A stretch of DNA of 64,000 nucleotides from positions 372,001 through 436,000 of the forward strand of contig NZ_VOLT01000004.1 of assembly GCF_007954275.1 (NCBI RefSeq), given 5' to 3'. Each line of letters begins with the position of its first letter. The first letter of the stretch is position 1. The notes below the pieces were generated by a model that did not search any database, was not told the origin of the DNA, and saw nothing but the letters and a program-made list of their open reading frames with translations. A program made the translations under genes and the position numbers. This stretch comes from Colwellia demingiae (lineage in GTDB: Bacteria > Pseudomonadota > Gammaproteobacteria > Enterobacterales > Alteromonadaceae). Below, piece after piece: positions 38,812-48,421 of this stretch.

Positions 38812-39069
38812 CTATTTTTTATATGAAGCTACAACATTATCAATACGTTCATTTGCTGCTTTAGCATCAGTCGCTGCTTGCTCAGCTGCTGCTTTTGCTG
38901 CTTGAACATCAGCCGATACAGATTGTTGTTGTGCTTCTAAATCAGAAACTTGGCTTGATAAAGCATCAACTTTACTTGTTAGTGAAGTGATGTTTGCATC
39001 AAGTGCATCTGTGTTGGCGCAAGCTGATAGCGCTAATGCTAGAGATACTGCAGTAATTTTTTTTAACAT
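38812..39069 (-). CDS. Lpp-like murein lipoprotein
   Basis: 85 residues. Lipobox ALSAC with lipidated C17, then an uninterrupted heptad-like helix (LTSKVDALSSQVSDLEAQQ, then repeated Ala-rich turns AKAAAEQAATDAKAA) and an end YKK. This is the plan of Braun's lipoprotein: a trimeric coiled coil anchored in the outer membrane, whose terminal Lys is joined to peptidoglycan. Somewhat longer and more Ala-rich than E. coli Lpp. The neighbouring L,D-transpeptidase is a plausible attachment enzyme. Likely abundant, with a promoter in the 118-base upstream gap. Confidence 0.85.
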   Translation of the reverse strand: MLKKITAVSLALALSACANTDALDANITSLTSKVDALSSQVSDLEAQQQSVSADVQAAKAAAEQAATDAKAANERIDNVVASYKK

Positions 39070-39187: not shown

Positions 39188-39526
39188 CTATTCCTTCTCT
39201 TCGCAGTTACCTGAGTTGATATGGGTGATTAGATCATCCATAAGTTTTTTCTTAATTTCTAGTTGATCTTCGGCTTGTAGTTGATATTTATCAGCGAGAA
39301 GTTGATAGTCACTAGGAGCTAAACTCACAGTTAAGCGAGGTCGCTTGGGTCTTTTATTGATTGGTAAGCCTAAAATATCACGAATTTGATCAGAAGGACT
39401 TAAGCCTGCATCAAGTGCTTGTTTACGAATAGACAACTGGATTTTTTCGTCCATATCAAAAGCAACCTGCACCGCTTTTATCGCTTTAACGGAGGATTGC
39501 CATTTATCGGGGATTTTTCTCGCCAT
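39188..39526 (-). CDS. Ribbon-helix-helix-like small protein
   Basis: 112 residues. Two segments resemble ribbon-helix-helix units: KIQLSIRKQALDAGLSPSDQ with IRDILGL (about 28-54), and RLTVSLAPSDYQLLADKYQL with the following EDQLEIKKKLMDDLITHIN (about 64-106). Each has a beta-strand followed by two helices. It is last in the PspA-DUF2491 group, 51 bases after the DUF2491 gene, separated from PspA by a terminator. A DNA-binding role is inferred and would make it a candidate regulator of the GACATAwTATGTC palindromes upstream. It could instead be a protein-binding partner. Confidence 0.6.
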   Translation of the reverse strand: MARKIPDKWQSSVKAIKAVQVAFDMDEKIQLSIRKQALDAGLSPSDQIRDILGLPINKRPKRPRLTVSLAPSDYQLLADKYQLQAEDQLEIKKKLMDDLITHINSGNCEEKE

Positions 39527-39577: not shown

Positions 39578-40219
39578 TTAACTTGCTGGGTACATATCAA
39601 TTATATCACTAAGCGGCTTAAATAAAGTTAAGCACACTTCAGTATCGCCATCTTGCCATACTTCAACATCAATACCCTTACTCTGGTCTTCATTATACAA
39701 GCTATATAATTCAAATTGCTCTCCACTATCTTTTCCTTCATAAGCAGACAGGTTCTCACTACGATGATCTTTACGATGAAAAAAGCCAACCTTAGCGAAC
39801 ACGCTTTGTTGGTATTGTTCGCTACTCCATAGGGCAGTGATGTTGGAGTCAGCCTTTTTTTCTAAAAAAGCCTCTCCAGGTTCATCGAATACTTCAGAAA
39901 AACTGTCTAAGTCAAATAAGGTTTCGACATCTTCATGTTGAATCTTTAATGATAATTTGAGCTCGGTAATATCATCTACTTCCAATGATAAAAATATTTC
40001 TAGTGCGTTAGTACCTATTAAGGCCCATTCGGTTTGCACCTTTTCTTCAAATTCATAGCTATTAACGGCTTTTACTTGAAACTCTTGTCCACGCAATGAC
40101 TCAGGTAAGGCAAAGCTATCCGTCAAAACAATAATATCATCAACCAGTAATTGATTAACTTTTGTTAATTTTCTTGGTTCGTTAGATGATTTATTAAATA
40201 TTTTTTTAAAAAAACTCAT
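39578..40219 (-). CDS. yjfK: DUF2491 (YjfK-like) protein
   Basis: 213 residues, cytoplasmic, acidic. The order FKKIFNKSSNEPRK, then beta-rich LLVDDIIVLTDSFALPESLR, and the ending EDQSKGIDVEVWQDGDTEVC match the DUF2491/YjfK family, found next to pspA and DUF2170 genes in many proteobacteria. Function unknown; guilt by association suggests a role in membrane-stress response. It lies 135 bases after pspA with a terminator between, so its expression may depend on read-through. Confidence 0.78.
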   Translation of the reverse strand: MSFFKKIFNKSSNEPRKLTKVNQLLVDDIIVLTDSFALPESLRGQEFQVKAVNSYEFEEKVQTEWALIGTNALEIFLSLEVDDITELKLSLKIQHEDVETLFDLDSFSEVFDEPGEAFLEKKADSNITALWSSEQYQQSVFAKVGFFHRKDHRSENLSAYEGKDSGEQFELYSLYNEDQSKGIDVEVWQDGDTEVCLTLFKPLSDIIDMYPAS

Positions 40220-40354: not shown

Positions 40355-41044
40355 TTACTTTTGTTTAGCTTTTAAACGCTCTAATACTGAGTTAGCGCTA
40401 TTGTCTTGTGAGCCAATACCCGCAGCTTTTAACTGCGCTTGTAATGATGAATCAGAGTTTTCAGATTCAAGTAATTCACCCGCTTTCATTTTGTCATCGA
40501 ACTTTTGTTGCTTAGCTTTAATGCGTTCTAAAGAATCTTTCGCACTTAATAACTTAGAATTGCTTGATGAAAAATTATCGGTAATAGCTGACGTCGCTTT
40601 TTGTACACTTTCAGTAGTCTTAACCATTGAAAGTTGACGTTTATGCTCGGCGACTTGACGTTCACTTCTCTTAACTAACTCTTTTAAACGTTCAGCGTTT
40701 CCACTAAAACTATCGTGAGCTTGCTGCTGATCGGCCAAAGTACCCTCTAAGGTAGCAATTTTTTCTGCTACAGCGAGTGCTAATGTTTCATCACCTTTTT
40801 CAAGTGCTTGCGTTGCATAACCTTCGTGCTCTGTAACTTCACGGGTTAAACGATCTACTTCACGTTTTGCTGACATTTGCTCAGCCATGACACCAGTTAA
40901 ATCACGTTTTGCTTTGGTAAGGTGATTTTCAGCATCTCGGATTTCTTGTTCAAAGATACGGGTTGCATTTGCATCAATGATAGCTTCACCAGCTTCTGAT
41001 GCACCGCCACGAATTGCGGTCATTATTTTTTTAAATATACTCAT
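40355..41044 (-). CDS. yjfJ: PspA/IM30-family protein (YjfJ-like)
   Basis: 229 residues from ATG 41044, with GGAG six bases upstream; a GTG at 41056 lies inside that site. The N-terminal amphipathic helix MSIFKKIMTAIRGGA is followed by the long helical hairpin typical of PspA/ESCRT-III-like proteins (EIRDAENHLTKAKRDLTGVM, EKIATLEGTLADQQQAHDS). Such proteins coat stressed inner membrane. It is not the PspA of a pspABC set: no PspF, PspB or PspC is nearby. The DUF2170 and DUF2491 neighbours place it in the YjfIJK branch. Confidence 0.88.
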   Translation of the reverse strand: MSIFKKIMTAIRGGASEAGEAIIDANATRIFEQEIRDAENHLTKAKRDLTGVMAEQMSAKREVDRLTREVTEHEGYATQALEKGDETLALAVAEKIATLEGTLADQQQAHDSFSGNAERLKELVKRSERQVAEHKRQLSMVKTTESVQKATSAITDNFSSSNSKLLSAKDSLERIKAKQQKFDDKMKAGELLESENSDSSLQAQLKAAGIGSQDNSANSVLERLKAKQK

Positions 41045-41103
41045 TATTAACTCCACTCATTCCCATTTAGGGGATAATTAAAGGTGATCTTGCTAGCGTA
41101 GTG

Positions 41104-41517
41104 CTAAAGCAAGTAATCACTCATATCATCAATTACTTCGATGGCATTATTACTTAATACCGCTAACTCATGCTCAACATCTGCAAAGCTTGAACTGATA
41201 GATAAAGCGCCAAAGACTACATATTTATCACCAATTTTTGAAAATGATGACAAGGGCATAGGGATATTCATTTCTAACATGCTCTCATGCATTGCATGAA
41301 TACATTCAGGTTTAACTTCTTCTGCTCCCCATAAGTAGCTGATGCAAATAATTTGGTCTTCGGTTACCGAAACAAAAATTGGCAACTCTTCACGGTCTGA
41401 AATGCTAATTTGCAGGACGTCGACTTCGCCAGATATTGGTTGGCAATCAAAGCTCATTCCTGTGTCTGAATTATCTGCCAAGCTGTTTAAGTGATCGGCT
41501 ATAGTATGAATATTCAT
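41104..41517 (-). CDS. yjfI: DUF2170 (YjfI-like) protein
   Basis: 137 residues from ATG 41517, preceded by AGGATAGGAAATAC. The longer frame to 41589 would run over an upstream palindrome that looks like an operator. It is a soluble alpha/beta protein: MNIHTIADHLNSLADNSDTG at the start, SISDREELPIFVSVTEDQII in the core, ending in IDDMSDYLL. The DUF2170/YjfI family is regularly encoded before PspA-like YjfJ. Biochemical role unknown. It is the first gene of the unit DUF2170-pspA-(DUF2491-RHH), 59 bases before pspA. Confidence 0.82.
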   Translation of the reverse strand: MNIHTIADHLNSLADNSDTGMSFDCQPISGEVDVLQISISDREELPIFVSVTEDQIICISYLWGAEEVKPECIHAMHESMLEMNIPMPLSSFSKIGDKYVVFGALSISSSFADVEHELAVLSNNAIEVIDDMSDYLL

Positions 41518-41556
41518 GTATTTCCTATCCTTCCTTTCTTTAGTGAAAAAGTAGAT

Positions 41557-41569
41557 GACATAATATGTC
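41557..41569. promoter_or_regulatory. Palindromic operator copy 1 (GACATAATATGTC)
   Basis: A perfect 13-base palindrome around a central A, 40 bases upstream of the DUF2170 ATG. It is identical, on the other strand, to copies at 41593 and 45518. The position is that of a core promoter/operator. Confidence 0.75.
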
Positions 41570-41592
41570 GTCTGAGTTAAATTTAACATCCT

Positions 41593-41605
41593 GACATATT
41601 ATGTC
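41593..41605. promoter_or_regulatory. Palindromic operator copy 2 (GACATATTATGTC)
   Basis: Extends to a perfect 15-mer TGACATATTATGTCA (41592-41606). Its centre is 36 bases from copy 1. The pair suggests cooperative binding of a dimeric regulator in front of DUF2170-pspA. Confidence 0.75.
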
Positions 41606-41686
41606 AAGGTGTTTTTATAAACTAATTGTTACTCTTTGTAGTTACTTTGTAGCAATTGTGATTACTAATCATTTTGGTATTAGCGA

Positions 41687-43393
41687 TTAATTTAAGCCTT
41701 GTTGATCTTGCCAAGCCCTTTGGTGTAATTGATAAATGGTATGACTGCCCAAAATATTAATACCGATATTCTCTTTATTTTGATAAAAATCATTAGGGAA
41801 AATGAAAGCAGCCTTTAATATAGCCAAATTTAACCATTGATGCGCTACCGGAAGCTTAGTTAGTTTGTTTAACCTTGTTAACGGGCTAGCGCCACTTTTA
41901 GAGGCAATAGTCCATCCCCATTCGCCAAAACTGGGCACGTTATCGTGATATTGCTCTACATGGGAAAACTTAGCTGCTGCTAAAGTATTGCCAATAGCAA
42001 TGAAAGAGTCTTTAGCGTGATACGGGCTAGTTGATTGAATTGCGATTAAACCATCGCCGGAAAGTAATAACTTAAGCCGGGCATAAAAGTTTACTGAATA
42101 GAGTTTATTAAGATCAGGATGACTTGGGTCTGGTAAATCAACAATAATTGCATCGAATGTTTGTCGATCTTTTAACAATTGATTAATGGCAATAAACGCA
42201 TCGGCACGATAAATTGTGACCCGTTCATCTTGTAAGCTGTTCTTATTTAACTGTAAAATTTGACGCGCTAAGCGAGGGTTTACTTGCTCTTCTGGTTGTT
42301 TAAAAATATCTATTAATTCACTATCTAAATCAATTAGCGTTACGTTTTTAGGATTGTATTTTAAAACATCTCTTAAGGCTAAACCGTCACCGCCGCCAAT
42401 AATTAATATCTTTTCATGTCGCGCAGAACCTGCCATTACTGGGGCAACGAGGTAATCATGATAAATATGTTCATCAATAGATGAAAACTGCAAACGGCCA
42501 TTTAGATAGAAATTGATTATATTGTCTTGCTCAAGACCCATATGACGTTCGGTAAAGGTTAACTGTTGATAACGAGTTTTATCGGTGTGAACCACTTTAT
42601 CAAGGTAGAGCAGACTATTCATTTGATTAAGCCATTGATTACCATAACTAAACATCAAAACTATAATTAAAGCTAATACACAATGTAAACCGACAAAGGT
42701 TTTACGCCAATTAAGGTGTTGCCAATAGCGGAGAATAAAAAAAGCACCGACAATTAGGTTTAAACTTGCTGTGAGTGCTGCTGCTTTACTGATATCTATA
42801 CTCAGTAAAAAAACAACCCAGATTGCCGCACCTATTCCAGCACCAACATAATCTGCGCCATAAATAGTACCTAAATTATTAGCAAGATGTTGCTGATGAA
42901 TTTTCTCCCTAATACGAGCAATTAGCGGGATCTCCATGCCAATAAAAAAGCCGAGTAATACGCCGAAGAGATAAGGGCTATTAAACGCTAGCCAGCTTAA
43001 TTGCTTGAAAAGTCCGCCTTGCGGCTTCATATCGGGCGGAAGTGATAACATATCAGCAATCAGTTGCGGGAATATTTGCGTAATAGCGATTAAACCGCCA
43101 ATGATCAAAATGGCAGAGCTACCCAGTAAGGCAATAATCAGTTCTAGCCATACAAAACCATTAAAAGCACAACGTACTTTTCTAGCAGCAAAAGCACCAA
43201 GACCCATCGACACTATCATTAACCCTATCATGGTGTAGATAGTGCTTTCCATCACGCCTAAAACTCGACCGGCGTAATGAGATAGTAAATACTCATAAAT
43301 TAACCCACAACCTGCTAGAACAGACATTGTTAGAATAAGTAGGATATCGTCAAGTAGGTGAGACTTCTCTTGAGGTAAAGTGTTTTGTGACAT
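41687..43393 (-). CDS. Membrane-fused polyamine aminopropyltransferase (SpeE-like)
   Basis: 568 residues. About seven membrane segments fill residues 12-255. A spermidine-synthase-like Rossmann domain follows (about 265-520): ILIIGGGDGLALRDVL (binding decarboxylated SAM in classical SpeE), VTLIDLDSEL, YRADAFIA, DAIIVDLPDPSHPDL and YSVNFYARLKLLL. Soluble SpeE makes spermidine from putrescine; the membrane fusion suggests action on a membrane or exported acceptor, which is inference. It lies 118 bases after the DUF350 gene in the same direction, an association seen in other proteobacteria. Confidence 0.85.
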   Translation of the reverse strand: MSQNTLPQEKSHLLDDILLILTMSVLAGCGLIYEYLLSHYAGRVLGVMESTIYTMIGLMIVSMGLGAFAARKVRCAFNGFVWLELIIALLGSSAILIIGGLIAITQIFPQLIADMLSLPPDMKPQGGLFKQLSWLAFNSPYLFGVLLGFFIGMEIPLIARIREKIHQQHLANNLGTIYGADYVGAGIGAAIWVVFLLSIDISKAAALTASLNLIVGAFFILRYWQHLNWRKTFVGLHCVLALIIVLMFSYGNQWLNQMNSLLYLDKVVHTDKTRYQQLTFTERHMGLEQDNIINFYLNGRLQFSSIDEHIYHDYLVAPVMAGSARHEKILIIGGGDGLALRDVLKYNPKNVTLIDLDSELIDIFKQPEEQVNPRLARQILQLNKNSLQDERVTIYRADAFIAINQLLKDRQTFDAIIVDLPDPSHPDLNKLYSVNFYARLKLLLSGDGLIAIQSTSPYHAKDSFIAIGNTLAAAKFSHVEQYHDNVPSFGEWGWTIASKSGASPLTRLNKLTKLPVAHQWLNLAILKAAFIFPNDFYQNKENIGINILGSHTIYQLHQRAWQDQQGLN

Positions 43394-43462
43394 AGGTATT
43401 AGTGACTAGTAATTAAGGTAAAAGGAGAGATATATATGAAGTTTACGCAGTATTTAATGATG

Positions 43463-43498
43463 CTCACCACCAGCGCTTGATCGTACTATGGTGGTGAG
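43463..43498. repeat. Strong hairpin between DUF350 and aminopropyltransferase genes
   Basis: CTCACCACCA and TGGTGGTGAG form a ten-base perfect GC-rich stem with a 16-base loop. No U run follows on the transcribed strand, so it may be an RNA-processing or stability element rather than a terminator. Confidence 0.65.
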
Positions 43499-43511
43499 TT
43501 TAACGCTTTTA

Positions 43512-44414
43512 TTAGGCCATTAGTGCCGTTAATATTAAGGCTATAGCGATACTAGTTGCCATTTCAATACTGGCGACACCGATATTATGTTGTTGATCTA
43601 CTTCTTCAACTAGGTTTATTCCCCAAAGTACGATGCGCTTAGCTATTGAAGAAAGTAGCGCAACAAGTAAAGTCATACCGATACCAAAAACTAACCAGCC
43701 GAGTAAATTAACGACTAATGTTTCTGGGCTGTAAGTTAGGAAGTGACTGGCAGCAGTTACCGCTAAAGCCGTACTAATTACTTGACCACTATAACGAATG
43801 GCTAAAGCAAGTTGACCATTACTTAACGCTTCCTGTAAGCAATCTTCTTGGTTGTTTTTAGCATACTGCTGTTCGCGTAGTCGAGTTACTATGACTAACA
43901 TGGTTTGAGCAACAATAAAGCCACTTGTGATAGCGATGAATGTACTTAAATCGAGCCCGTCTACCCATAGTAATACAGCACGAATGATTATCGCTGTTGC
44001 AATAGCCCCAGATGCGTCGATAATGCCAATGGTTAAATTTTTCTCTATTATCAGTGCATTTTTATCTAAGTGTTGCAGTGCAATTTTATCATGGATAATA
44101 CGACCTACTTTAATCAGAATTAAACCATAGCCGCCGTATGCCAACATACCAATAGCTTCCATAGCATAGCTACTTGCTGCTTCGCCAGTAATAGCACCGG
44201 TAAGAACAATGCCTAGCGCTAATACACTACCAGCAACACTGATACCAAAAGCGAAGTTATCTTCTTTGGCTAATTCTTCAGTACTGTTTACCTTTGCACT
44301 AAGTCCTGACAGGAAGCGCATTGCTCCTAATAACAATATGGCAATCGAAACATCGATGGCCAAATAAACGAGTAAGTCTTGATTAACACCAGTGAGTTCG
44401 ATGAATGAGTTCAT
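43512..44414 (-). CDS. Double-DUF350 (YjfL-like) membrane protein
   Basis: 300 residues, about eight membrane helices in two related halves. Each half has the family's small-residue helix: DNFAFGISVAGSVLALGIVL (about 52-71) and HNIGVASIEMATSIAIALIL (about 276-295). E. coli YjfL has a single, roughly 130-residue DUF350 unit, so this is a tandem version. Function is unknown; the family is linked with PspA-like and polyamine-transfer genes. It lies 31 bases after the lipoprotein gene. Confidence 0.83.
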   Translation of the reverse strand: MNSFIELTGVNQDLLVYLAIDVSIAILLLGAMRFLSGLSAKVNSTEELAKEDNFAFGISVAGSVLALGIVLTGAITGEAASSYAMEAIGMLAYGGYGLILIKVGRIIHDKIALQHLDKNALIIEKNLTIGIIDASGAIATAIIIRAVLLWVDGLDLSTFIAITSGFIVAQTMLVIVTRLREQQYAKNNQEDCLQEALSNGQLALAIRYSGQVISTALAVTAASHFLTYSPETLVVNLLGWLVFGIGMTLLVALLSSIAKRIVLWGINLVEEVDQQHNIGVASIEMATSIAIALILTALMA

Positions 44415-44445
44415 AATTTTACTGTTCCTATTCTTTATTTATTCA

Positions 44446-45435
44446 TTACTTCCCGCGTCTAAAACCGCGTGATGTATTGGTGTTTGAGTTTCTAAAACTA
44501 GAATTTTTACTTTTAGATTTACTGGCATAACTGCTTTTCTTCACACTATTGGTGCGGAAGCGATTAGCACTCGTTTGGGCTGTTTTACTTTGGCTTGATA
44601 AGCTTGAAGATCCCGCTCGGTTTTTGCTATACGGACTGGTAAATTTTTGCCCGCGATTACTAAAAGATTTTTTAGTGCGGGTATCAAGCGATGTCTGTTT
44701 CTTTAACTGGTTGGGTGAGCTGTAACGTGTTCTGCCGTAGTCGTTGTAATAGCTATAATTACGTTGTCTACCCCAATCATTATAAGAGGTACGTCGACCA
44801 AACATGTCACCCATCAAAGAGTACATGCCATACCAAGCCCAAAAAGACATGCCATTGCTGCCTGTTTGCCAGTTACCGTAACTAGGGTTACCAATTAATT
44901 GCTCACCGGTACCAAAGTCTTGTGCATTGTTGGCTTGCTGGCTTTGCGATTTTGATAATGAATTAATACGAGGCAGTTGACCATCAGACATATCAGCCAA
45001 TACATTAAGCGGATCGCTCAATGCATCTGAATAAAGTACAGGATCTGCTGCTTGGTAAATATTCAGTAATTCATTATAAAGCGCCTGAGAAGACTCAAAC
45101 ATTTGTGGTTGGTTTTTTGCTGTATTAATCCTATCTAATAGCGCTTTGTACATAGGGCCATCGGTGGAAGCATCTTTACGAAACTCATTGATCAAGGGGG
45201 CTAAGTTCGCTTTATTAACCATTACTGTATCAGCATACTTTTTAATTAAGCTGGCATTGCGAACTTGACCATTATTTAAAGCCTCACCTAACTGAGCAAC
45301 TCTTTGCTCGGTCATCGGTAATTGCTGTTCGATTTGCTCTTTTACAGGATCACCACAGCCAAATAAACTAAGCGTGGTAATTATGATCAAGAGCAATAAA
45401 AAAGGTGTTTTTAGTAAGTGCATTTCTGCCATCAT
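44446..45435 (-). CDS. Lipoprotein with basic low-complexity tail
   Basis: Up to 329 residues; three Met codons at positions 1, 2 and 5 compete for the start near an AAGGAG. Lipobox SLFGC marks a lipoprotein. Residues about 30-160 are helical (EQIEQQLPMTEQRVAQLGEA). A Trp/Tyr/Gly-rich part (SFWAWYGMYSLMGDMFG) follows. The last 120 or so residues are Ser/Lys/Arg/Asn-rich and probably disordered, ending SRGFRRGK. I do not recognise the family. It heads the unit lipoprotein-DUF350-aminopropyltransferase and has the shared palindrome 83 bases upstream. Confidence 0.72.
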   Translation of the reverse strand: MMAEMHLLKTPFLLLLIIITTLSLFGCGDPVKEQIEQQLPMTEQRVAQLGEALNNGQVRNASLIKKYADTVMVNKANLAPLINEFRKDASTDGPMYKALLDRINTAKNQPQMFESSQALYNELLNIYQAADPVLYSDALSDPLNVLADMSDGQLPRINSLSKSQSQQANNAQDFGTGEQLIGNPSYGNWQTGSNGMSFWAWYGMYSLMGDMFGRRTSYNDWGRQRNYSYYNDYGRTRYSSPNQLKKQTSLDTRTKKSFSNRGQKFTSPYSKNRAGSSSLSSQSKTAQTSANRFRTNSVKKSSYASKSKSKNSSFRNSNTNTSRGFRRGK

Positions 45436-45517
45436 CTCCTTAAAAATGCTATGTTATCGTAATAGTTAATTAATATTAGCGACAAATCATAGACAAGTGT
45501 CAATTAATACCATTAAC

Positions 45518-45530
45518 GACATATTATGTC
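45518..45530. promoter_or_regulatory. Palindromic operator copy 3 (GACATATTATGTC)
   Basis: The same 13-mer as copy 2, in the divergent gap between the lipoprotein gene (start 45435) and glnE (start 45563). It could control either or both; sharing with the DUF2170 promoter favours the lipoprotein unit. Confidence 0.72.
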
Positions 45531-45562: not shown

Positions 45563-48421
45563 GTGACGTTATCTTTTTCTCCCCTTTTACACGACCAACA
45601 AAAAACCAGCTGGCAGCAATTTATTGACCAGCATGCAGATGCCTGTAATGAATTAACACAAGATCAGCTTAATAGATTTAAGCAAGCGATTACCTTGAGT
45701 GATTTCATCTTAAACAGTGCTTTACAAGCACCTGAACTCGTTATTGAACTATTTAAAATAGCTAGCGAAGAAGTATTACCTGATTATAAAAGCCTTTTAC
45801 ATGAACAATTATCCCCTTGTACTGATGAAGCTCAGTTGCATCGAGTTCTTAGACGATTTCGCTTACAACACATGGTTAAGATAGCACTTGATGACTTGAT
45901 TCTGAGCATTAGCCTAGATATTTCATTAGCAAGATTATCCTCATTAGCGGACGAACTTATTTTAGCTAGCTTAGAATGGCTCAGTGATTTTTGTCAGGAA
46001 AAATGGGGTACACCGACGAGTGAACAAGGCGAAAGTCAGACTTTATTGGTCTATGGCATGGGGAAACTTGGCGGGAAGGAATTAAATTTTTCCTCCGATA
46101 TAGATTTAATTTTTACTTACCCTGAAAGTGGAGAAACCCAAGGTTGTCGTCGCAGTATAGATAACCAGCAGTTTTTTACCCGCTTAGCACAAAAGCTTAT
46201 TGCGTCATTACATCAAGTAACCTGCGATGGTTTTGTTTATCGTGTAGACATGCGATTACGCCCTTTTGGTGATAGTGGGCCACTTGTGCTGACATTTAAT
46301 GCTATGGAAGATTACTACCAAGAACAAGGACGCGATTGGGAACGTTATGCTATGTTGAAAGCTCGGGTTATTGGTGAGTCTAAATACCACGAGCAGCTAT
46401 CAAGCATGCTCAGACCCTTTGTTTACCGTCGTTACATCGATTATAGCGTCATTGATAGTTTACGTCGCATGAAAATGATGATTGCCCAGGAGGTTCGTCG
46501 TAAACAATTAATTAATAATATTAAACTTGGCGCTGGCGGTATTCGTGAAATTGAATTTATCGTACAAGTTTTTCAGTTAATTAGGGGAGGGCGGGTCAAA
46601 GAGCTTCAACAACGCAGTTTATTAATAGTGTTGCCAAAACTTGTGGAGTCAGGCGAAATTAACGCTGAGAATAAAGAAGTGTTAGAAAATGCCTACCGCT
46701 TTTTACGACGTGTTGAAAATATCATTCAAGCCTTAGCAGATAAACAAACGCAAACGTTACCCGATAATGAGCTTGATCAACAGCGATTATTAACAGTACT
46801 TGCCATTAAAACTTGGCCTGAATTTTTAGTTATATTAGCTAAGCATATGGACGGTGTTCACCAAGAATTTGATCTGCTTATTGGACTTGATAGCCCAAAT
46901 CATCAAGCTGCAGATGAACACTGGGTAACCCTTTGGCACAGCCGCTGGAGTGATGAAGAGTCTATTGCATGGCTAGAACAAGAAGCCCATTCATGGGAAA
47001 GTAATAAGGTTTGGCAAATACTGCATGATTTTCGAGAGGATACTAGTAAACGCAGTTTAGGTAATAGAGGTCGTCAAGTTTTAGATAAATTAATCCCGTT
47101 ACTGTTATGTAGATTACAAAAAAATGAAATGGCAGAACAAGTTATTGCAAGAGTATTGCAAGTCTTTAGCAAAATAGTGACACGTACTGCTTACCTAGAA
47201 CTACTCTTTGAAAATGAAGGAGCGTTAAAGCAGCTTATTCACTTATGCCAGGCAAGTAGTTGGGTGACAGATTATATTGCTAAATATCCTATTTTACTTG
47301 ATGAGCTTATTGATCCTAAGTTGTTACATAATCCACCACAACTTTCATCTTATGCAGTAGAGCTGCGTGAACGCATGTTAAGAATTCCAGAGGAAGATCT
47401 TGAAGCACAAATGGAAGCGCTACGTCAGTTTAAGCAATCTCAGCAATTACGTATTGCGGCCGCTGAAATTGCTGATGTCTTACCGGTAGCAAAAATCAGC
47501 GAACACTTGACGTCTTTAGCGGAAGCCATTGTATCTGAGGTGATAAATCTTTCATGGCAGCAAGTCAGTGAGCGCTTTGGTATACCGACCTCATGCTTAG
47601 ATGGCGCTAAGGAAAAAGGCTTTGGTGTTATTGCTTACGGAAAAACTGGCGGGGTAGAGTTAGGTTACAGTTCAGACTTAGATTTAGTATTCGTCCATCA
47701 TAGTGAGGCAAATGAAGACACAACAGGAAGGGCTGATGGTAGTAAAGTAATACCAGCAAGCCAGTTTTATATGAAGTTAGCCCAGCGTATTATGCATATT
47801 TTTAATACGCGTATGAACAGTGGCATTTTATATGAATTGGATATGCGTTTAAGGCCATCAGGTAATTCGGGCATGTTGGTCGTACATTTAAATACCTTTG
47901 CTCAGTATCAACATGAAGATGCTTGGACTTGGGAGCATCAAGCGTTAGTAAGAGCCAGAATGATCTTTGGTAATGAAGAGCTCCAGCAGCAATACATCGA
48001 TATTAGGCAAGATGTCTTATCAAAACCCAGAGCGTTTATCGAACTCAAAAACGATATTATTACTATGCGTGAAAAAATGCGCAGCCATTTAGATAAATCA
48101 ACTGAATCGCTCTTTGATATTAAGCAGGGTAAAGGTGGGTTGGTTGATATTGAATTTCTTGCCCAGTTTTTAGTACTTGCCTACGCATCACAGCACAGGG
48201 AATTGATGCTTGTATGTGATAATTTAGGTATTTTTAAAACCCTGCTGAAGTTGGACTTATTAGAAAAGGTAGAACAACAACAGCTAAGTAATATGTATCA
48301 AAAATTAAGGGCTCTAGGGCATCAAGCTACAATGCAAAATGCGGGGCAACTTATTAATAGGGAAAGCATAGACGGTGAAGAGGCTATTGGAGACATTTGG
48401 CAAAAACGCCTAATTGATTAA
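45563..48421 (+). CDS. glnE: Glutamine synthetase adenylyltransferase/deadenylylase
   Basis: 952 residues, full length. It attaches and removes AMP on glutamine synthetase in response to PII and glutamine. Two nucleotidyltransferase domains are present. The N-terminal deadenylylating one has YGMGKLGGKELNFSSDIDLI (about 170-189). The C-terminal adenylylating one has AYGKTGGVELGYSSDLDLVF (about 692-711). Each carries the GSxxDxD-type metal site. The start is GTG with AAGGA upstream. It is monocistronic, divergent from the lipoprotein gene, with a hairpin spanning its stop codon. Confidence 0.97.
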   Translation: MTLSFSPLLHDQQKTSWQQFIDQHADACNELTQDQLNRFKQAITLSDFILNSALQAPELVIELFKIASEEVLPDYKSLLHEQLSPCTDEAQLHRVLRRFRLQHMVKIALDDLILSISLDISLARLSSLADELILASLEWLSDFCQEKWGTPTSEQGESQTLLVYGMGKLGGKELNFSSDIDLIFTYPESGETQGCRRSIDNQQFFTRLAQKLIASLHQVTCDGFVYRVDMRLRPFGDSGPLVLTFNAMEDYYQEQGRDWERYAMLKARVIGESKYHEQLSSMLRPFVYRRYIDYSVIDSLRRMKMMIAQEVRRKQLINNIKLGAGGIREIEFIVQVFQLIRGGRVKELQQRSLLIVLPKLVESGEINAENKEVLENAYRFLRRVENIIQALADKQTQTLPDNELDQQRLLTVLAIKTWPEFLVILAKHMDGVHQEFDLLIGLDSPNHQAADEHWVTLWHSRWSDEESIAWLEQEAHSWESNKVWQILHDFREDTSKRSLGNRGRQVLDKLIPLLLCRLQKNEMAEQVIARVLQVFSKIVTRTAYLELLFENEGALKQLIHLCQASSWVTDYIAKYPILLDELIDPKLLHNPPQLSSYAVELRERMLRIPEEDLEAQMEALRQFKQSQQLRIAAAEIADVLPVAKISEHLTSLAEAIVSEVINLSWQQVSERFGIPTSCLDGAKEKGFGVIAYGKTGGVELGYSSDLDLVFVHHSEANEDTTGRADGSKVIPASQFYMKLAQRIMHIFNTRMNSGILYELDMRLRPSGNSGMLVVHLNTFAQYQHEDAWTWEHQALVRARMIFGNEELQQQYIDIRQDVLSKPRAFIELKNDIITMREKMRSHLDKSTESLFDIKQGKGGLVDIEFLAQFLVLAYASQHRELMLVCDNLGIFKTLLKLDLLEKVEQQQLSNMYQKLRALGHQATMQNAGQLINRESIDGEEAIGDIWQKRLID

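Follow-up and report, generated by a model that had tools for sequence, protein, structure and literature searches.

The closest described system to the locus considered here is the PSP partner operon of Ravi et al. (2024; PMC11237479), which, in the part of that paper available to us, combines a CesT/Tir (DUF2170)-PspA pair with a spermine synthase, a DUF350 protein, a lipoprotein, and a DUF4178 protein, and has as its final gene, in some cases, a ribbon-helix-helix (RHH) transcription factor; separate band-7/YqiJ operons are suggested there to work with PspA encoded elsewhere. In Pseudomonas aeruginosa, a mutant of BacA (a DUF2170 protein) accumulates other proteins of the bac cluster, for which the authors suggest negative control, and sigma-54 sites are placed at bacA in a main text that contains neither the word ribbon nor RHH (PMC10948618). 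From this phenotype it follows only that such an operon can be influenced by DUF2170. Bacillus sigma-W and other Psp-type envelope responses bring PspA and SPFH/NfeD proteins into one response, controlled by a sigma factor or by PspF/two-component systems. The present analysis concerns the palindrome GACATAwTATGTC, which precedes both units of a DUF2170-PspA-polyamine cluster in Colwellia demingiae; the window is the whole stretch of DNA that was analysed, 64,000 nucleotides of contig NZ_VOLT01000004.1 (positions 372,001 to 436,000). DUF2170, PspA, spermine synthase, DUF350, lipoprotein, DUF4178, and RHH components are all present at this locus, with the DUF4178 match falling under the curated cut-off, the lipoprotein having no Pfam family, and the RHH fold being predicted.

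At a probability of roughly 0.83, GACATAwTATGTC is the operator of a tandem RHH protein of 112 amino acids (aa), which would repress its own operon as well as other units in trans and would be relieved by envelope or ion stress; we infer the binding, the repression, and the signal. The operator role is drawn from the sites themselves, their conservation, the promoter position of the first operator in relatives, the co-distribution of sites and gene, and the predicted fold of the protein. Compared with the operon of PMC11237479, as far as that source was available, the gene set is the same, to which this analysis adds a proposed operator with its place in the promoter and its targets in trans; the operon and the RHH gene within it are already in print, and what the sequence evidence suggests beyond them is that a tandem-RHH repressor governs a Psp-type envelope response. 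The bac cluster of P. aeruginosa has the DUF2170-PspA pair in common with this locus but, in the available text, sigma-54 sites at bacA in place of the sigma-70-like promoter predicted here. The classical Psp response, which relies on a PspF-activated sigma-54 promoter, would also differ in this respect, while the Bacillus sigma-W and Psp-type responses share PspA and SPFH/NfeD, with a small RHH repressor proposed here instead. No description of the operator, its geometry, or its regulon was found among the papers listed in searches of the open-licence literature, where the motif strings matched only an unrelated plant paper; a report that yjfIJKL rises in E. coli when a promoter is deleted does not, in the part available, concern this site (PMC12492005). 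For an operon so far described by gene neighbourhoods, these results provide an operator, a candidate regulator, and a set of putatively co-regulated genes, and the shared operator lends sequence support to the band-7/YqiJ-PspA link suggested in the available part of PMC11237479 and makes it testable.

Exact copies of the palindrome occur three times in the window (41557-41569, 41593-41605, and 45518-45530), as an earlier note made from the sequence alone had claimed, and its statement that the 64 kb contain no further copy is borne out by a mismatch scan, in which the remaining 19 matches at up to three mismatches all carry three; the total of 22 is at the chance level (mean 20.5). A first-order Markov model built from the window predicts 0.0023 exact copies per window and 0.19 per genome, and the whole assembly (5,227,722 bases in 37 contigs) contains the same three exact copies only, together with 11 one-mismatch sites. 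Among perfect 13-bp odd palindromes, the only other sequence present more than once in the window is T6-N-A6 (2 copies). The gene context also agrees with the earlier note in that two copies precede DUF2170-pspA and one precedes the lipoprotein-DUF350-spermine synthase unit.

The positions of the two copies upstream of DUF2170 are suggestive of repression. Operator O1 (41593..41605, minus strand), which with two preceding bases reads TTGACATAATATGTC, contains the -35 hexamer of a predicted sigma-70 promoter, TTGACA-16-TAAATT with TG before the -10 (41580..41607, minus strand), proposed from the promoter scan and related loci; operator O2 (41557..41569, minus strand) is close to the predicted transcription start at a distance of 36 bp from O1, with the DUF2170 start codon about 40 bp further on. 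The placement of O1 over the -35 and of O2 near the predicted start corresponds to a repressor geometry. Related loci were taken as the best 80 of 412 stretches and are mostly from Colwellia and Thalassotalea, so they are not independent; all 80 contain the O1-O2 pair (spacing 36 bp in 51, 35 in 24, 37 in 4, and 39 in 1), O1 forms TTGACA in every one, and a -10 matching 4 of 6 bases at a 16-bp spacer is present in 75 (the best of spacers 15-19, without a shuffled control). In four loci from other orders (L402, L403, L405, and L406), paired sites are only 15 or 18 bp apart, so operator spacing is not fixed. Operator O3 (45518..45530, minus strand), which reads TAGACATAATATGTC, a near match to a -35, stands before the lipoprotein unit; its consensus over the 42 loci readable with 45 bases before O3 is TAGACATA.TATGTC followed by TG.TATTAAT, by which O3 may overlap a -35 of that unit, and the promoter scan of the window returned no promoter at O3. 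Outside DUF2170 promoters, sites with a single target overlap a -35 in 21/62 cases versus 7/62 when read backwards, the corresponding values for single-target DUF2170 sites being 15/22 and 10/22; no excess of -10 overlap was found among single-target sites.

Conservation extends well beyond this genome. In a scan of 61 genomes, 46 have at least one exact copy and all 37 members of the genus (own genome included) have 2 to 8, compared with a reversed control pattern found once each in 4 genomes. Other families also have the pair in front of DUF2170, and the third site is often kept within the genus. Departures occur at the DUF2170 promoters of family f11 (L212-L219), where the operator is altered to GACATTWAATGTC in 8/8 genomes (a form found outside f11 in 3 of the 22 other genomes of that search, one copy each), in two f25 genomes with one mismatch, and in two f102 genomes with two mismatches. 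In the f11 regulator, the predicted strands are almost unchanged (VQIAF for VQVAF) despite the altered operator. The earlier note had argued that identical sites imply one regulator common to both units; with sites that are conserved in the genus and reappear at this promoter in further families, such a shared regulator is well supported at the level of sequence. The note had also named two outcomes that would count against this idea, many random genomic copies and absence of the motif at orthologous clusters; the opposite was mostly found, apart from the variant palindrome of f11 and the one-mismatch site of f25.

The most likely regulator, judging from sequence, is encoded at the end of the DUF2170-pspA operon by its final gene (39188..39526, minus strand), whose 112-aa product is predicted to have the secondary structure E19-22 H27-40 H44-52 E66-69 H71-81 H88-106, i.e., two beta-alpha-alpha units in order, in a low-confidence model (mean pLDDT 65). 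Searches of Pfam and NCBIfam matched the protein to no RHH family, five of the 15 members tested matched a PHROG Arc-like repressor profile weakly (best E 0.008), no relative was found in phage and plasmid collections at E 0.001, and its nearest named relatives are Colwellia records. No sequence similarity to it was found in TraY of plasmid F, single-chain Arc, or AvtR, which are tandem RHH proteins with another genomic setting and other targets. Co-distribution was scored on 148 order-level genomes, comparing two or more exact sites with the gene, which was found in 50: 39 have both, 2 sites only, 11 the gene only, and 96 neither. Among DUF2170 carriers alone the corresponding counts are 39, 1, 11, and 17, and at the genus level they are 12, 1, 2, and 51. 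In a class sample of 274 genomes scored for at least one site, 7 have both (two of them own-family genomes), 3 sites only, 3 the gene only, and 261 neither. The same pattern is repeated at finer scale, with four sampled genera of family f1 having both and four neither, and with one genome of genus g7 (G158) having both and the other seven neither; within the own genus, 37/39 genomes encode the protein. Where the DUF2170 promoter of gene-only genomes was read, the operators there are altered (f11, f25, and f102), the contig of G147 (sites without the gene) ends before the gene position, and in G058 the gene and the two-site pspA promoter are on separate contigs. Several observations weigh against this assignment: a genus member that is 99% complete (G023) has three sites and the regulator gene was not found in it, G119 has two sites without the gene, six order and three class genomes have one site each without it, G417 carries the gene while the stretch read there contains no site, and the promoter scan of the window is at chance near O1 (2 found versus a shuffle mean of 1.3).

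The sequence data support a regulon that extends past the two units. The census comprises 166 distinct exact sites in 67 genomes, which is a part of all sites and includes some genomes without the regulator gene; 8 sites have no open reading frame within range, Pfam labels of targets come from single representatives, and 46/67 target clusters occur in one genome only among the matches listed, so that many single targets may be chance. DUF2170 lies downstream of exact sites in at least 24 genomes, and O3-type sites face glnE in at least 17 and the lipoprotein in at least 12. Further recurrent targets include nhaA (at least 12 genomes), an HtpX-like M48 protease (at least 10), Lrp/AsnC and Band_7/SPFH genes (at least 7 each), NfeD (at least 6), peptidase M16 and a YqiJ-type gene (at least 4 each), and carbonic anhydrases (at least 3), as well as a small membrane gene without a Pfam label beside a Band_7-type gene (at least 6) and a small secreted protein (at least 6) that is followed by a PspA gene in the loci inspected (L019, L042, L135, and L143). 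Of the 11 one-mismatch sites in the C. demingiae genome, three fit this target set (before a beta carbonic anhydrase, between Mrp-like and Lrp genes, and before a Bax1-I family gene), and relatives within the genus carry exact versions of the first two. At one locus (L134:2149-5820), a site is flanked by an ion-channel-like gene and by an LTXXQ (Spy/CpxP-type) gene, the latter divergent from a two-component system, which may point to a Cpx-like response; a response regulator with a Trans_reg_C domain is also encoded near one site in L134.

Taken as a mechanism, a single RHH-RHH monomer would be comparable to an Arc dimer, and the palindrome would accept one or more such units. Protein bound at O1 and O2 would block RNA polymerase and so repress its own operon, while protein bound at O3 would repress the lipoprotein-DUF350-spermine synthase unit; in various relatives, repression in trans would reach a second pspA, SPFH/NfeD genes, nhaA or Mrp-type antiporters, the M48 protease, and carbonic anhydrases. 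Envelope or ion stress would lift repression, perhaps via DUF2170 or its PspA partner, which are natural candidates for this role because they are constant partners. There is about an even chance that the scheme is broader, i.e., that many Gammaproteobacteria possess an unnamed envelope-stress response that is distinct from Psp/PspF, Cpx, sigma-E, and Rcs. PspA paralogues, SPFH/NfeD membrane organisers, Na+/H+ antiporters, a membrane protease, and a polyamine-type synthase would then all be under one small tandem-RHH repressor, for which DUF2170-PspA would serve as sensor or anti-repressor.

The same sites could instead be bound by the RHH protein as an activator, or as a repressor at some promoters and an activator at others, since 41/62 single-target sites outside DUF2170 promoters do not overlap a -35; this is unlikely given that TTGACA is part of O1 in 80/80 loci and that O2 is close to the predicted start, since a protein at such positions would normally keep polymerase out. 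It is a little harder to credit a different transcription factor, such as the Lrp/AsnC protein encoded divergently from nhaA or the Mrp-like gene, or a membrane XRE protein beside NfeD/SPFH genes, even though sites do occur in the nhaA/Lrp and Mrp-like/Lrp intergenic regions, sites adjoin XRE genes in L138, L141, and L142, and G023 has sites with no RHH gene detected. Lrp/AsnC does not co-distribute with the sites (both 4, sites only 37, gene only 13, p 0.78) and was rejected as the regulator on distribution (17/148 genomes, no association). One XRE group (XRE-B) is partly associated with them (both 8, sites only 33, gene only 4, p 0.004) but was likewise rejected, being present in just 12/148 genomes and in 8 of the 41 that have at least two sites; the own genome gave no match to it at E 1e-10. 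The other (XRE-A) has matches in 22/148 genomes, with long close ones (at least 51% identity) in three f1 genomes only, and was rejected on distribution as judged by inspecting the match list only. That the palindromes are an RNA hairpin, a terminator-like element, or a mobile repeat and not a protein site is highly improbable: one palindrome does make a terminator-like element in the scan (41552-41574, shuffle mean 0.1), but O1 is at the predicted -35, outside the transcript, conservation of the flanks is limited to promoter-like elements, and copies stand at the same promoters across different families. Autorepression through O1 and O2, together with repression in trans, by the 112-aa protein is the preferred reading.

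On the minus strand, the cluster runs in the order lipoprotein-like gene (44446..45435, without a Pfam family at E 0.001), DUF350 membrane protein gene (43512..44414), gene for a protein with a C-terminal spermine/spermidine synthase domain (41687..43393), O1 and O2, DUF2170 gene (41104..41517, YjfI/BacA-like and CesT/Tir-like), pspA (PspA/IM30; 40355..41056), DUF4178-like gene (39578..40219, E 0.0036), and the gene for the 112-aa protein. Longer DUF2170 proteins from other families (L044-L048) share an N-terminal stretch (YRQRLREQGLxKKEVWILPE-like) that is conserved and may be a fused DNA-binding domain replacing the separate RHH gene; weak MazE-like Pfam matches in 2/5 (best E 0.0023), with no match to the RHH regulator profile, led to this fusion not being used. 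The divergent neighbour of the lipoprotein gene is glnE (45563..48421, plus strand), whose called start is 33 bp from O3 and which may be under the control of O3. A small Lpp-type lipoprotein gene (window 38812-39069) comes after the regulator gene.
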